Shown here: positions 45,814 to 52,740 of the stretch, piece after piece
Numbering within the stretch: position 1 is the stretch's first letter
Layout of the letters: each line of letters opens with the position of its first letter
Source of the DNA: Chitinispirillum alkaliphilum
GTDB taxonomy: Bacteria; Fibrobacterota; Chitinivibrionia; Chitinivibrionales; Chitinispirillaceae
Assembly: GCA_001045525.1 (NCBI GenBank)
Contig: LDWW01000014.1
Span: 1-64,000 of the forward strand
Direction: 5' to 3'
Length of the DNA: 64,000 nucleotides
Position numbers and translations under genes: made by a program
Notes under the pieces: model-generated
Databases searched by the model: none
Told to the model about the DNA's origin: nothing
What the model saw: the letters and a program-made list of their open reading frames with translations, nothing else

Positions 45814-47093
45814 GTAATATCCAAGTTCCACTGATCTATAATCTCTTCCCCAGACATTTCGATACATTTGAGGAATGGAGCAGTGTGTTGCCTCAGGCAA
45901 AAAAGATGGGGTTCAATTCAATATTTATCAATCCTTTTCACCAAACCGGGTTCTCAGGAAGTCTGTATGCGGTTAAGGATTACTACAAACTTAACCCGCT
46001 GTTTTTAAAAGAGGGACAGAGTCCTTCTGATTTCACTCCGCTGAAAAAGTTCATTACCAGGTGTCAGGATATGGGTTTGATGCCTATAATGGATCTGGTA
46101 ATAAACCATACGGCATTCGATTCGGTGCTGACAGAGAGCAAGCCTCAGTGGTACAGAAGGGACGAGAAGGGGGAAATTATCTGTCCTTACGCGGTGGATC
46201 CGGCTGATCCTTCAAACGTGCAGGTATGGGGAGATCTTGCCATGATCGACAACCACTTCTCCACAGACAAGCAGGGTCTTTGGGATTACTGGGATAAGCT
46301 GGTCTCTTTTTACCAGGATCTGGGGATATTGGGCTATAGGTGTGATGCGGCATATCAGGTACCCGCATCGCTGTGGAAATTTCTTATCTCTGCGGCAAAG
46401 GAAAGGGATAAAAATACCCGGTTTTATGCTGAAACGCTGGGTTGTCAGGTAAGTGAGGTTGAAGCTTTGGGTGATGTTGGGTTTGATTATCTGTTTAACT
46501 CATCAAAATGGTGGAATTTTGATGCTCCCTGGGCTCTGGAGCAACATGATATATTCAAAAAGTTTGCTCCTTCAATCGCGTTCCCTGAGTCACACGATAC
46601 TCCACGTCTTGCTGCTGAGCCACCCGGTACAGAGGCGGTACAGAAGTGCAGATATGCTTTCGCTTCTGTTTTCTCTGAGGGATTGATGATGCCGATGGGG
46701 TTTGAGTATGGAGCAAAAACCAGAATGAATGTGGTCGAAGGTACTCCGGAGGATATGGATAAACCAATATGGGATCTTACTGGCTGGATCGGGAAAATAA
46801 ACAAACTGAAAACAAGTATGCCGGTTCTTGCCGAAGAGGGAACATGGAGAAATATTTCCGGTTATCGTTTTCCCTACATATTTCTCGAGAAATCTTCTCT
46901 CAAAAATGAAAAACCGGTCTATTTCTGCATTAACAAGAATTTTACCGCAGAGACACGGGTTGAAGACTGGGCGATTCCCGGAGAGATCAAAAACTGTTCT
47001 GCGGTGATTGATATGCTCTCCCCTGAACTGGAGGAGCAACCTCTACCCCCGGCGTTTCTGCTGGAACCTGCAGATATAATTATGTTTAAATAA
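45810..47093 (+). CDS. GH13 family glycoside hydrolase/transferase
   Basis: A 427-residue alpha-amylase superfamily protein that is shorter than most, with no signal peptide. It has DLVINHTAFDS (conserved Asn-His), nucleophile Asp in GYRCDAAYQVPA, acid Glu in FYAETLG, and the transition-state Asp in ESHDTPRLA. The GYRCDAAYQ and AETLGC pattern resembles maltosyltransferase GlgE (GH13_3) catalytic domains more than secreted amylases; GlgE itself is longer. A cytosolic role in alpha-glucan metabolism is likely. It overlaps panC by four bases. Confidence 0.8.
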   Translation: MSNIQVPLIYNLFPRHFDTFEEWSSVLPQAKKMGFNSIFINPFHQTGFSGSLYAVKDYYKLNPLFLKEGQSPSDFTPLKKFITRCQDMGLMPIMDLVINHTAFDSVLTESKPQWYRRDEKGEIICPYAVDPADPSNVQVWGDLAMIDNHFSTDKQGLWDYWDKLVSFYQDLGILGYRCDAAYQVPASLWKFLISAAKERDKNTRFYAETLGCQVSEVEALGDVGFDYLFNSSKWWNFDAPWALEQHDIFKKFAPSIAFPESHDTPRLAAEPPGTEAVQKCRYAFASVFSEGLMMPMGFEYGAKTRMNVVEGTPEDMDKPIWDLTGWIGKINKLKTSMPVLAEEGTWRNISGYRFPYIFLEKSSLKNEKPVYFCINKNFTAETRVEDWAIPGEIKNCSAVIDMLSPELEEQPLPPAFLLEPADIIMFK

Positions 47094-47106
47094 AAAAAAT
47101 CTGCAA

Positions 47107-47156
47107 GTTCACCGCAATTGCAAATGTGCTTTTACCAAAATGTGATTGCGGTGAAC
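47107..47156. repeat. 12-bp inverted repeat hairpin after the GH13 gene
   Basis: GTTCACCGCAAT (47107-47118) pairs exactly with ATTGCGGTGAAC (47145-47156) around a 26-base loop, 14 bases past the stop. No T-run follows. It may end the folK-panC-GH13 transcript or bind a protein. Confidence 0.5.
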
Positions 47157-47349
47157 CAATCATGCCCCTTTAGGAGCTGCTAAGTTGCCCTGGAAGTGAT
47201 GTTTATCTATATTTTACCTGATGCAGCGGCCGTTCATTGTTGAACAGTTCACAAATTCTGCAATATTACTCATACCTGAGCGCACTAGATAATTCAGAAG
47301 TATTGCAATTAAATAAGTAAAAGAAACAGTTCCTCTGATAACTTATTGA

Positions 47350-47384
47350 AGGCAGATGTCTGAATAAAGCATCTGCCTTTTTTA
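47350..47384 (+). terminator. rho-independent terminator
   Basis: AGGCAGATG (47350-47358), an 11-base loop, CATCTGCCT (47370-47378), then TTTTT: a textbook 9-bp stem and T-tract. It lies 257 bases past the GH13 stop, and so may end a separate short RNA. Confidence 0.85.
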
Positions 47385-47472
47385 TTAAGGCTCGGGGCTG
47401 AAATGTTGACTGTTGCAAAGTACACATTGATATGCTTTCTGCGGACTCGAAGGGGCTTAATTAGCACTGCTC

Positions 47473-47600
47473 CCGGCTTCGGCCCCCCCCCAAAAAAAAA
47501 TATATGTAATTTGTTAAACTGCGCAGAGGATATGCTGCAGACGTGCTAATAGTGCAATGCACAATTACCTAACCGCTATCTAATTTCAAACTAGAATGGC
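47473..47600 (+). repeat. left arm of long imperfect inverted repeat
   Basis: This 128-base stretch matches, in inverted orientation, 48253-48403. Shared blocks in order: CCGGC, a C-run then A-run, GCGCAG (47521-47526), GGATATGC (47528-47535), CAGACGT (47538-47544), AGTGCAAT (47551-47558), TAAC-x-GCTATC (47570-47580) and ATGGC at the end. It includes a C9-A9 homopolymer tract (47483-47500). Confidence 0.65.
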
Positions 47601-47787
47601 TTCATAAATCAGCACTTCTGTATAAACGAAAATGCATCTCTAATAATGGGGACTTGACATAAATATGCCCTTGGCTCTATTTTGTATGGTGATTAGCACC
47701 TCTACAATTTTCAAACCATTGACCTGGTTTCAGATGGAAAATTGAAATGAAAAAAAACTCTGATTTGTTTGGTCGATAATAGAAGAA

Positions 47788-48240
47788 ATGAAAAAGACAA
47801 TAACAATTCTTATTTCTATAATTCTATTTAGCCTTTTCGGTTTCAGATTCTTTCTTGTTGGATTAGTATCAATCACAGAAAATTCTATAATTGAAGAGGG
47901 CAGCCTTGAGTATTTGATTCTGATTCCAAGAACCTTACGGCAAATACCTGTTATACAACCGGTAAATGCTCCCGTTTACAAACATTATGGTAAATCTACA
48001 TTTCAAAACAAAAAGCAAAACCTTACTTATGTAACGAATGCTCGCCCAGAGATTGTAAAATGTAGTCTTTTTCGCTATTTAGAATCTAAGTGTTTTAAAT
48101 TGAAAGAATCACATATAGCTCGCGATTATGAAAACTATGTTTTTTATTACAAAAGATGCCCGCAAAAAAAAATAGAGATTTTTATCTTTACAAAAGATGA
48201 GATTTCCTTGGAGATTATAAACTATACGCATCTCCATTAA
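47788..48240 (+). CDS. hypothetical membrane-anchored protein in the repeat-bracketed unit
   Basis: A 150-residue protein with an N-terminal membrane helix or uncleaved signal (TILISIILFSLFGFRFFLVG) and a basic, Tyr-rich remainder with three Cys (KCSLFRYLESKCFKLKES, YYKRCPQKK). The gene is markedly AT-rich with frequent AAA, ATA and TTA codons, unlike its housekeeping neighbours, which suggests recent arrival. AGAAGAA precedes the ATG. No family is recognised. It is the only gene between the inverted repeat arms. Confidence 0.55.
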   Translation: MKKTITILISIILFSLFGFRFFLVGLVSITENSIIEEGSLEYLILIPRTLRQIPVIQPVNAPVYKHYGKSTFQNKKQNLTYVTNARPEIVKCSLFRYLESKCFKLKESHIARDYENYVFYYKRCPQKKIEIFIFTKDEISLEIINYTHLH

Positions 48241-48252
48241 CCAAAAATGTTG

Positions 48253-48403
48253 GCCATTTTGGTTTTAACTGTGGATAGCAGTTAGAAATTTTAGTATTGC
48301 ACTTTCAGTACGTCTGACGCATATCCATCACATCTGATGAAGTAACCGTAACTGCGCAATTTTATAATTCACACATTTTTTTTGGGGCTTCGCCCTATGC
48401 CGG
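48253..48403 (-). repeat. right arm of long imperfect inverted repeat
   Basis: Read on the minus strand it repeats the left arm: CCGGC, CCCC then A8, GCGCAG (reverse complement at 48352-48357), GGATATGC (48319-48326), CAGACGT (48310-48316), AGTGCAAT (48296-48303), TAAC-x-GCTATC (48274-48284), ATGGC. It is longer by a roughly 25-base insertion after GCGCAG. Confidence 0.65.
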
Positions 48404-48840
48404 TTATTGAGTTTATTGAAATATCGTAGTATCAGCCCGCTTTCTACTGCGGTTCGGTTGACTCAGCAATTGATCTGTTGAAGTGAGAGAAGGAGAGTTT
48501 GAAACAGATAAGGCAGTTGGTCTGGGCGCATGCAGAGTAGCTGTTCTCAAAAAATCTTGGGATTTGAAACCCCGTAAGGTAAACATCTGTATGATTACGG
48601 TAAACGTTTTGACCAGTTAACTAATAGAACTCTTTTGCAATGCTGCCCGTGAACTGACCTGACCCGGCTACTCTTATCAATATTCCCTTAAATCACCCCC
48701 TCCCATTTTTTCCCAGAGACAAATCATATACCGGAAGCTGAATACGTTCCAGGGAAGGGATTACTCCCCAGTCGATAAGATGTGGAAGGAAATCGCAGTG
48801 GCAATTTACGCATTCTGCAAGACAACATTCTAACCTCGTT
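48404..48840. other. region without a supportable gene
   Basis: About 440 bases with short broken frames only, for example a 46-codon plus-strand frame beginning near 48483 without a ribosome site. It looks like old accessory DNA next to the repeat-bracketed unit. Confidence 0.4.
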
Positions 48841-49176
48841 TTACCTGTAGAAGATAGTCTTGCGGCCTTCATCCTGTTTGCCCCAATCATCTGGTATGTA
48901 TAGTTCTGTAGGAATTATCCCAAAAGCCATACCCCGCGCGTCCCAGCGATGGTCGTGGGCCAATATGAAACTGTATCATTTTCCCCATATACCTGCGGGA
49001 TCTTATCTTATATCCTGAATAGACACAAACTCTCCATCCACAAACCCCATACACTTCCGGCCCGCAGTCTGTGGATAGGAATAGAAGAGTAAATAATAGG
49101 GAACTTTTGTGTTTTCATTTTGATGGTACTCATTCCATCTTGAGACAGTTTCGATCTTCATCCGAGTCTCTGCCAT
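48841..49176 (-). pseudogene. remnant of a decayed gene
   Basis: Starting at ATG 49176 one frame runs 112 codons to 48841 and is interrupted only by a TAA and a TGA near its middle. The three pieces read like protein (VPYYLLFYSYPQTAGRKCMG, then FILAHDHRWDARGMAFGIIP and TELYIPDDWGKQDEGRKTIF). Such protein-like composition in one frame on both sides of the stops suggests point-mutation decay. No family is recognised. Chance is not excluded. Confidence 0.3.
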
Positions 49177-49234
49177 TCACTTGAAATTAGTAACATTTTG
49201 GTTCCGATCTGATTTACATAAAGATTTTCAGGTA

Positions 49235-49254
49235 GCAATTATTATATTAATTGC
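49235..49254. promoter_or_regulatory. inverted repeat upstream of the CsgG-like gene
   Basis: GCAATTA (49235-49241) and TAATTGC (49248-49254) form an exact 7-base inverted repeat with a 6-base AT spacer, 67 bases before the start. Operator-like by shape only. Confidence 0.3.
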
Positions 49255-49321
49255 CAAATCCAAATATGTGAAAAATGGGTGTGTTTTGATATGCACTTAC
49301 TTTCGATTGGGGTAAAAATCT

Positions 49322-49936
49322 ATGTGTCGATTTCCAATTTTTCTGATCGCCGTTTTCTCTGCATTATCTGTATTACTTGCTCAGGATCGGGTTCCTGCTG
49401 CGCTCAATCAGCTCACAGGTAGTGGTATGGAGCAAGGCGAAGCAGTTGCTCTGACCAATGCTTTGCGTGGCGAGCTTACACGTACCGGTGTTTTTGACAT
49501 GATGGAGCGGTCTCAGGTAAATGAGATTCTTGCAGAACAGGGGTTTCAGCTATCCGGAGCCTGCAGTGATGATTCTTGTCTGATAGAAGTGGGACAGCTG
49601 CTCGCAGTGAAATACATGTTTATGGGCCATGTCGGCAGAGTGGGCGCAACCTATTCTGTAAGTGTGCGCCAAATTGATGTAGAGAGTGGCAGAGTTGTAC
49701 AGGATATTACCCAAAATCACAGGGGTGATATTGATGATTTACTTACTGATGTGGTGCCTTCTGTAGCGCAGAAAATTGCCGGACTTGATAACCCGGTAGT
49801 ACAGAGAAGAAGATTATGGCCATGGTTTGCCGGTGGGGTGGTGGCAACAGCGATACCAGTTATTTTGTTTCTAAACAGCAGTAAAGACAGTGAAATAAAT
49901 ATGGAATCATCTGAACTCATCATAGAATGGCAATGA
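49322..49936 (+). CDS. CsgG/LpoB-like envelope protein with C-terminal membrane segment
   Basis: A 204-residue protein with signal peptide (about residues 1-20). A CsgG-like domain follows (about residues 25-150): LTNALRGELTRTGVFDMMER, QVNEILAEQGFQLSG, then VGQLLAVKYMFMGHVGRVG and SVSVRQIDVESGRVV. A hydrophobic segment near residues 166-183 (PWFAGGVVATAIPVILFL) may be a membrane span. Such proteins help export or assembly of envelope proteins. Its last ten bases overlap the start of the B-repeat/FISUMP lipoprotein gene, so the two are produced together. Confidence 0.75.
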   Translation: MCRFPIFLIAVFSALSVLLAQDRVPAALNQLTGSGMEQGEAVALTNALRGELTRTGVFDMMERSQVNEILAEQGFQLSGACSDDSCLIEVGQLLAVKYMFMGHVGRVGATYSVSVRQIDVESGRVVQDITQNHRGDIDDLLTDVVPSVAQKIAGLDNPVVQRRRLWPWFAGGVVATAIPVILFLNSSKDSEINMESSELIIEWQ

Positions 49937-52740
49937 TCATGAAACGACCGATTCTCAAAAGTTTAGTATTTACAGCTATGGTGCTCATTTTGTCCTGTTC
50001 CGATGATTCCCCAGTTGCAAACAACAACAGTCGTGTCGTCACAGATATCAGCTGGATAAGGAATGGTGAGACTGTTTCTGCACCGGATGGTGTTGTTACG
50101 ATGAGAATCACTGTTGAAGAGGGTAGTGATATCAGGATCCGAAATATACCCTATGAGGCTGGTACTGCACGGATTGGCCCTTATCCCATCGGAACTGTAT
50201 TGAATGTGTTATGGGAAGCTTTGGATTCTGATGATCAGGTTATTTTCTCAGGTCAAAACAATGATATTCATCTTGGAGATGTGGAAGTACGTATCTCGGT
50301 GGAACTTGAGGCTGTGCGGCATAAGGTGAAATTCATTTCCGTGGATGAATTGATTTTAGGGTATCAATTGGTATCACATGGGGATGTGGCTTCTGAACCG
50401 ACTCCACCAACACGTCCAGGCTTCAGGTTTGATGCTTGGTCTCTTGATCAGAATCGCAAAGAGGTATGGAACTTCAAAACAGATGTCGTAAACAGCAGTA
50501 TGATACTCTATGCTTTATGGAGTGAAACAGATGTTGAACAGTTCACGGTGACATATCATGGTAACCAGAATAGTGGTGGAGTTATCCCAGTGGACCCAAA
50601 TTCCTATGAAGAGGGGGATGAGGTCAGGGTACTTGAACCAGGTAATCTCGTGAAGAGTGGTTTTTCGTTTAGTGCTTGGAATACAAGTCCTGACGGAAAA
50701 GGTAAAGATAAAATCCCAAAAGAATCTTTTAATATTGGCTCATCGAATGTAATTCTATATGCAAAATGGCTCAGGGATGAACATGTCGACACCTTTACAG
50801 TTACATTTCAAACCAACGGCGGCAGCAGTATTGATCCACGCCGGGTGGTTAGTGGCGATACCGTGACTGCACCTTTAGCTCCGGAAAAAGAGGGAGCAGA
50901 GTTTCAATTCGCAGGTTGGTTTCTTGATCAGAATTTTGATGTACTGTGGAGCTTTTCGACTCCTGTAACTGAGGATATCACCCTTTATGCAAAGTGGGTA
51001 GAATTATTTTCATTGCACTACAGTGCCGGTGCGAACGGAGCTCTTACAGGTGATACAATTCAAACAGTACGAAATGGTGAAAATGGCAGGCCGGTTTACG
51101 CCGAAGCTGTTGATGGGTATGTATTTTCACAGTGGAGTGACGGAGTTACAGAAAATCCGCGCACAGATACAAATGTAAAGGAAAATATTAGTGTTGCGGC
51201 TCAATTTAAAACAGTTGCAAATGACATATTTACAGTCACATTCAAATCTGATGGAAAGTTTGAATTTGATCCTGTTCAGGTACCCGAAGGTAGGACTGTG
51301 CCCCTGCCTCTTAATCTGTCAAGAATTGGTTATGAATTTGATCGGTGGTATGCTGATTCGGCTAAATCTATACCATGGGATACATCAACTATTATAAATG
51401 AAAATATTACTCTTTATGCAAATTGGACACCGAATGAGTACACCATAACTTTTGATGCGCAGGAGGGATCAACTCCGATCCCTGAGACCATAGTTGTTAC
51501 CTATGATAATGCATACGGCTCTCTGGCTGAAACGTCACGGCTATGGTATGATTTCGATGGCTGGTTTACGGAAGATTCGATTGAAATTATACCAGAGCTA
51601 ACCGTAAATATTACAGAGCACCTCACTCTTTACGCCCGATGGAGTCCAACTGAGTACAATATCGTATATCGGTTAAATGGTGGAGAAGAAAATCCTAAAA
51701 ACCCCAAAGTTTATACTGTTGAAGAGAGTGTTGAGCTTAAAAACCCTTCAAGAACTGGTCATAGGTTTGTCGGATGGTATGTCGGTCCTGAATTCAATGT
51801 AAAAATTACAGAGATACCGGTTGGTTCTTATGGTGACCGGACGATTTATGCAAAGTGGAGACCTGAAAACTATGAAGTAACTTTTAATGTACCAGGGGCA
51901 AGTGCTGTCCCACCTCAAACAGTTTCCTACAGAAATAAGATTGCTGAACCAGACCCTCCTGTAAAGCCACACTTTCTTTTTGCCGGTTGGTATAAGGATG
52001 GGCTACTGAAAGAAAGGTGGGATTTCGATAATGATGTTGTTACTTCGAACATGACGCTTTACGCTAAATGGGGACGGGTGGCTGATGGTGATGGAAATGT
52101 CTACACTACTGTGATCATTGGCAATCAGGAGTGGACTGTTGAAAACCTTCGGGCAACAAAGTATAGCTGCGGTACACCTATACATCACATTACAAACGCC
52201 AGCACCTGGAGTGGATTATCAATACCTGCATACTCTTACTTCAACAATACAGATAATCAGGATTCCATAATCAAATTTGGTGCCCTGTATAACTGGTGGG
52301 TACTGGATCCAAATAATCAATATAAAATTGCACCTGATGGATGGAAAGTACCTGAACGCACAGACTGGATTACTCTCAGAGATTACCTCGTTACAAATGG
52401 TTTCAATTGGGATGGGTCAAAAGAAGACAATAAAATCGGTAAAGCACTTGCTTCAAATGGTGGTGAATGGTCCTTTAGTACTACTGAAGGAAATGTCGGG
52501 AATGACCAAAGTAGTAATAATCGAACTGGCTTTACGGCATTACCAGGTGGTTTTCGAAATTCAGATGGTCCTTTTTCGACTGCCAGAAATACCGCATACT
52601 GGTGGAGCAGTACGGGGCATGGTGATGGGCGATATGCCTCTGCGGTTTATCTGAAATCTGGTAACGAAAACCTGATAGACAATTACGTGCACACAAAGAA
52701 CAGTGGGTATTCTGTGCGGTTTGTACGATATGTAGATTGA
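49927..52740 (+). CDS. lipoprotein with about eight InlB-type B-repeats and a C-terminal FISUMP domain
   Basis: A 937-residue protein. A lipobox VLILSC is followed by a unique beta domain (about residues 35-135). About eight repeats of roughly 70 residues follow (about residues 135-715), each of the Listeria-Bacteroides type with F-x-V-T-F, GYEFDRWYADS-like and ITLYAKW ends; the fourth is a diverged copy. The last 220 residues are a FISUMP domain (VIIGNQEWTVENLRAT, FGALYNWW, GFTALPGGFRN, AYWWSST, YSVRFVRY), a lineage marker for Fibrobacterota and relatives. It should stand out from the cell as a rod with a terminal binding head. It may use the upstream CsgG-like protein for export. Confidence 0.9.
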   Translation: MAMIMKRPILKSLVFTAMVLILSCSDDSPVANNNSRVVTDISWIRNGETVSAPDGVVTMRITVEEGSDIRIRNIPYEAGTARIGPYPIGTVLNVLWEALDSDDQVIFSGQNNDIHLGDVEVRISVELEAVRHKVKFISVDELILGYQLVSHGDVASEPTPPTRPGFRFDAWSLDQNRKEVWNFKTDVVNSSMILYALWSETDVEQFTVTYHGNQNSGGVIPVDPNSYEEGDEVRVLEPGNLVKSGFSFSAWNTSPDGKGKDKIPKESFNIGSSNVILYAKWLRDEHVDTFTVTFQTNGGSSIDPRRVVSGDTVTAPLAPEKEGAEFQFAGWFLDQNFDVLWSFSTPVTEDITLYAKWVELFSLHYSAGANGALTGDTIQTVRNGENGRPVYAEAVDGYVFSQWSDGVTENPRTDTNVKENISVAAQFKTVANDIFTVTFKSDGKFEFDPVQVPEGRTVPLPLNLSRIGYEFDRWYADSAKSIPWDTSTIINENITLYANWTPNEYTITFDAQEGSTPIPETIVVTYDNAYGSLAETSRLWYDFDGWFTEDSIEIIPELTVNITEHLTLYARWSPTEYNIVYRLNGGEENPKNPKVYTVEESVELKNPSRTGHRFVGWYVGPEFNVKITEIPVGSYGDRTIYAKWRPENYEVTFNVPGASAVPPQTVSYRNKIAEPDPPVKPHFLFAGWYKDGLLKERWDFDNDVVTSNMTLYAKWGRVADGDGNVYTTVIIGNQEWTVENLRATKYSCGTPIHHITNASTWSGLSIPAYSYFNNTDNQDSIIKFGALYNWWVLDPNNQYKIAPDGWKVPERTDWITLRDYLVTNGFNWDGSKEDNKIGKALASNGGEWSFSTTEGNVGNDQSSNNRTGFTALPGGFRNSDGPFSTARNTAYWWSSTGHGDGRYASAVYLKSGNENLIDNYVHTKNSGYSVRFVRYVD

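Follow-up and report, generated by a model that had tools for sequence, protein, structure and literature searches.

The described systems closest to the locus reported here fall into four kinds. Mobile insertion cassettes (MIC231, mic-qnrD; PMC3913671) hold a gene between IS-like inverted repeats in the absence of a transposase; the inverted repeats bound the cassette, and target duplication is usual. In the TIME-COMPs of Pseudomonas, which belong to the Tn3 family, a pair of miniature elements (oppositely oriented in one instance) encloses genes unrelated to them, again with the transposase absent; their transposition has been demonstrated, with 5-bp duplications (PMC4133298). MITEs and ISL3 miniatures (e.g., a 293-bp copy in contig C4 of the genome studied here, G000) are short, non-coding and have IS-derived ends, which in MITEs point outward at both termini. 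Finally, there are the ISL3-family IS themselves (PF01610, DDE_Tnp_ISL3).

The one-gene unit at positions 47473 to 48403 of the window (the whole analysed stretch of 64,000 nt of Chitinispirillum alkaliphilum DNA) resembles each of these in part. It carries a gene without a transposase, as a mobile insertion cassette does, yet its IS termini face the gene, and no target duplication was found at its borders. As in TIME-COMP, two short IS-derived sequences surround an unrelated gene, but they are ISL3-type, their outer ends are unrecognisable and evidence of movement is lacking. Each of these two arms is short and non-coding like a MITE, but has an IRR only, the other end being beyond recognition. 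In both arms, the inner 75 bp are the IRR, with the end of the transposase coding sequence, of an ISL3-family IS found in the genome of a same-genus Chitinispirillum MAG (G001), whereas the arms lack a transposase and an IRL, and have a non-IS tail fused on the internal side.

Two inverted arms around an orphan gene

The left arm (47473–47602) and the right arm (48252–48403) are inverted and collinear. Aligned in opposite orientation, they reach a local alignment score of 85, against a mean of 20.6 (SD 3.5) and a maximum of 43 in 2000 dinucleotide-preserving shuffles, none of which attained 85. A preliminary description, which had reported long imperfect inverted repeats with blocks in the same order on both sides, is borne out by this result, and its own refuting test, that the arms might align no better than shuffled sequence, has been run and survived; the location it gave for the arms stands as well, with the inner end of the right arm corrected to 48252. 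The arms are approximately 75% identical, the chief difference being a 25-nt segment (about 48327–48351) present in the right arm only. The inner 75 bp aligned alone score 73 (shuffle maximum 33; n = 5000) and the outer tails alone 42 (shuffle maximum 32; n = 5000); the score of the segment from the poly-T onward (homopolymer to CCGG) was reached in 177 of 5000 shuffles, and the C-run/A-run/CCGG portion is the weakest stretch of the match. Outward, the homology ends at CCGGC: the flanks beyond score 21 versus a shuffled mean of 19.7.

The outer tail of the left arm (47473–47527, minus strand; 55 bp) reads CTGCGCAG ... A9, C9, CCGGC, and no IS homology was found in it. That of the right arm (48327–48403, plus strand; 77 bp) includes the 25-nt insert and terminates in TTTTTTTTGGGGCTTCGCCCTATGCCGG. 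The pattern GCGCAG...T8G4...CCGG is common to these two arms only.

Between the arms lies an intact open reading frame (ORF) of 150 codons (47788–48240, plus strand), specifying an N-terminal hydrophobic helix and about 115 further residues. It is longer than the longest ORF (124 aa) in 3000 shuffles of the inner segment, and its GC content is 31%, versus 42% for the window; the AT-rich gene for a 150-residue protein described earlier is thus confirmed, as is the absence of a transposase, no transposase ORF being present within the unit. The product had no match in Pfam, NCBIfam, PADLOC, PDB, plasmids, phages, genome_contigs and viral_contigs, only weak matches in PHROG (E 0.025 and 0.052) and chance-level matches in the genomes of relatives. 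An AlphaFold model computed without an alignment (mean pLDDT 45.8) is uninformative past the N-terminal helix. Upstream, a promoter-like TTGACA-N18-TATTTT (47654–47683, plus strand) is a candidate by its consensus match only (10 of 12 positions), and such sites are no more numerous in the region than in shuffles.

Inner arms and the direction of the IS termini

When the own genome was searched with the unit, the short matches obtained formed a cluster that sets in at the right arm's inner border, and the right arm also matches copies in G001 (blastn, 85% over 59 bp, E 2.9e-10). At one G001 locus (L046), a frame matching PF01610 reads straight into TAACGGCTATCCACAGTTAAACCAGAATAGCC, i.e., the C-terminus and then the IRR; the ISL3 transposase of G001 is a 100% match to one in SKJJ01000103.1, from a Chitinispirillum sp. 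MAG. We built a model of the ISL3 end (R1) from 12 ends, both arms among them, which has 22 matches in the own genome and 20 in G001 at E ≤ 1 (18 and 14, respectively, at E < 0.01); apart from the two arms, 16 IS ends at E < 0.01 are scattered over the own genome. The arms, themselves in the model, match it with E 3.9e-9 (left; G000:C14:47539-47600, minus strand) and E 5.4e-12 (right). Independently of R1, the left arm aligns with the G001 IRR at a score of 56 (shuffle maximum 30; 0 of 1000 shuffles reach 56) and the right arm at 77 (shuffle maximum 33). Compared with the G001 IRL, the left arm falls short of the shuffled mean and the right arm exceeds it only weakly; given the similarity between IRL and IRR, this slight excess is expected. 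By their flanks, the R1 matches split into two types of end, IRL (GGCTATTCTGACTTAAGTATGGAAAGTTAGAAAAAAGAG..., then the transposase N-terminus) and IRR (GGCCATTCTGGTTTAACTGTGGATAGCAGTTAG...), and several of those in G001 adjoin contig ends, as expected for a multi-copy IS.

These comparisons identify the inner ~75 bp of both arms as the IRR of an ISL3-family IS, comprising transposase C-terminal codons and the IRR: a degenerate IRR (3′ end) at 47528–47602 (minus strand) in the left arm, recognised by the R1 model and the alignment with the G001 IRR, and an IRR (3′ end) at 48252–48326 (plus strand) in the right arm, recognised by blastn in addition. Judged from this sequence similarity, the arms have the homology expected of an ISL3-derived relic, namely, to the end of an IS that encodes an ISL3-type transposase. 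They had been considered too long for IS ends; their length is explained by what they hold, namely, internal IS sequence (the C-terminal coding part of the transposase and the IRR) and a tail in addition, and single-strand folding is not needed to explain them.

The GGCC/GGCT terminus is the outermost stretch of the IS. Its outermost base lies at about 47600–47602 in the left arm and at 48252 in the right arm, both facing the gene. The arms are therefore inside out, and the gene lies outside the IS ends. Were the arms to bound a MITE, the unit would have IS termini as its outermost sequence; here they point inward, and such ends could not mobilise the gene as a MITE or a mobile insertion cassette. 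Normal, terminus-outward pairs occur elsewhere, e.g., the 293-bp IRL/IRR miniature at G000:C4:163831-164123, which makes the inverted pair at 47473–48403 the odd one. The flanks of that miniature, AAATCGCC and AAATTGCC, are identical at seven of eight positions, in accord with the 8-bp target duplication listed for the ISL3-family ISPpu12a (PMC4133298). Inside-out IS ends can make up a convincing inverted-repeat frame for a gene, so the direction of the termini has to be checked before a cassette is called. The ISL3-type ends and miniature elements recorded here make up a small family in Chitinispirillum (Fibrobacterota), in which relics carried by one genome could still be acted upon by the multi-copy IS of a relative.

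Copy number, target duplications and origin

A third copy of the tail or of the full arm was found neither in the own genome, G001 and G006 nor in 40 genomes of the order, and there was no second whole unit or arm pair among these 40. The IRR part alone is multi-copy, as a MITE would be; the full arm is not. The arm search suggested in the preliminary description thus yielded many copies of the IRR part, but no arms bracketing other small genes. The tails score 14–18 against IRL and IRR, near the shuffled mean; a tail as IRL was rejected, the match being no better than shuffles. Since the tail is shared, both arms appear to descend from one derivative. A near full-length R2 match in genome G008 (E 4.7e-4; local score 47 against the right arm), situated in a region encoding a small zinc-ribbon-like ORF, was judged within chance for 40 genomes from the extrapolated shuffle distribution.

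Target-site duplications around the unit, the search for which had also been proposed, were not found: comparison of its two outer borders yields the CCGG ends alone, there is nothing beyond chance at the inner borders or around the right arm, and no exact 8-bp duplication adjoins either arm. By the outer end of the left arm, the imperfect direct repeat AATTAGCACTGCTC (47459–47472, plus strand) has a partner, AATCAGCACTTCTG, past the inner end (47607–47620), with 11 of 14 positions identical, a level reached in 2 of 3000 shuffles for what is the best of several comparisons. Relative to the IS terminus it is shifted by a few bases, and its length is 14 bp, not the 8 bp expected of ISL3. Possibly, the pair is a decayed target duplication of the left arm alone, a weak hint of a separate insertion. 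A relic need not keep its duplication, so the absent 8 bp makes an intact insertion less probable, but not derivation from ISL3.

The best explanation, to which we give a probability of roughly 0.7, is that two inverted copies of one truncated ISL3 derivative lie by the AT-rich orphan gene, in intergenic DNA rich in repeats, that is, ordinary mobile-DNA debris. Each arm would be a decayed copy in which ~75 bp of the IS right end are fused to a tail of 55–77 bp, and the two would stand opposite each other, their IS termini facing across ~650 bp of AT-rich DNA with an unrelated orphan gene. As to the mode of copying, we infer either two separate insertions, or one insertion and then an inverted duplication. 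The gene would have arrived horizontally and not as their cargo. In the past, the IS transposase would have acted in trans on the ancestral element and moved it; today the unit is most likely immobile. Among the options of the preliminary description, two copies of a dispersed repeat are thereby favoured, as the inner arms are an IRR that is multi-copy in the own and the same-genus genome. Against this explanation, both arms share the non-IS tail and the CCGG outer stop point, and no third copy was found in the genomes searched. That a derivative not seen elsewhere should have inserted twice independently, 650 bp apart, is a priori unlikely, and this favours a duplication or some kind of unit; given arms ~75% identical and a differing 25-nt block, any duplication would be old.

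The main rival, which we consider unlikely, is a dead composite element: two miniature ISL3 derivatives would once have co-mobilised the gene, their active outer ends being the tails, now decayed past recognition. The symmetry of the arms, the foreign-looking AT-rich gene and the absent transposase are consistent with it, and TIME-COMP shows that paired miniature elements can move intervening DNA (PMC4133298); yet in a TIME-COMP-like element each arm would be a complete miniature with both ends, whereas the tails match IRL and IRR no better than shuffles, the outer borders are without a duplication and the unit is single-copy. Should the unit have moved, it would represent an unusual composite of the inside-out type. 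The earlier proposal of a non-autonomous mobile element, here one delimited by the arms, is disfavoured by the inward termini, the missing flanking duplication and the lack of another copy.

It is also very doubtful that the CCGGC/hairpin tails are the true ends of a one-gene mobile unit served by some recombinase, with the IRR homology as a captured internal piece. Both arms do share CCGG as their outer limit, small hairpins rich in GC and accompanied by A/T runs can be read from the sequence at both borders, and GC falls inside; but there is one copy, with no arm pair elsewhere in the 40 genomes of the order and no flanking duplication, and the poly-T-to-CCGG match alone is weak. Very improbable, too, is a novel type of one-gene mobile cassette comprising the whole 931 bp, with the CCGG-bordered tails as ends and the IS end as an internal recognition segment. 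An integron gene cassette with attC-like sites, which the single small orphan gene and the palindromic flanks might call to mind, is scarcely credible: the arms are inverted, where attC sites would be directly repeated, the GTT-/AAC-type core motifs of the left arm stand, by eye, in the reverse of the attC order, and ISL3 homology accounts for the inner arms. No second cassette was found either, and the unusual gene cassette of the preliminary description, taken as one of the integron kind, is not supported.

Surroundings of the unit and other ISL3-type elements

Left of the unit, G001, G006 and G004 retain the gene order as far as an amylase-like gene; the right side differs, and there is consequently no clean empty site among these relatives. 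The proposed check for an arm-free locus thus recovered the left-hand gene order only. The intergenic DNA after the amylase gene in G001 has no homology to that of the window. Several G001 genes are related to the right-hand CsgG-like gene, all those listed being off the amylase contig. Just outside the right arm (48426–48486, plus strand) lies a dispersed repeat, GTAGTATCAGCC...CTTTCTACTG..GGTTGACTC, common to two intergenic loci of G001 (L146 and L147; 90% and 82% over 39 bp at G001:C114 and C117), and itself within longer mosaic repeats; its presence adds to the case for mobile-DNA debris. A search for structured RNA in Rfam (47000–49400) gave no match up to E 1. Directly after the amylase-like gene, the window contains a perfect 12-bp inverted repeat, GTTCACCGCAAT/ATTGCGGTGAAC (47107–47156), and at 49927–52740 it encodes a protein of 937 aa in which seven Listeria-Bacteroides repeats are combined with a Fibrobacter succinogenes major domain at the C-terminus.

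Other ISL3-type ends show further arrangements. One end in G001 (L125; G001:C233:86-145) has an IRL-like start and an IRR continuation, as though both ends had recombined. Four IRR-type ends in G001 (L116, L117, L122 and L126) are followed by a similar GC-rich segment (AATCGA...GAGGCCGACCGCGACGCCGATGG) and are apparently single-ended miniature elements. In the own genome and G006, five IRL-type ends at unrelated loci (L011, L012, L024, L027 and L135) lead into a mosaic that recurs from one to the next (CTGGGCGGCTGCCGCGGACGTCACCGGTTC and GAGGAGGCACGACGAGCC or variants). A second ISL3-family IS, the ends of which differ from those of the IS represented in the arms, occurs at G000:C48:15580-16299 (L082), with an intact frame of 428 aa, and in G001:C69 (L080).
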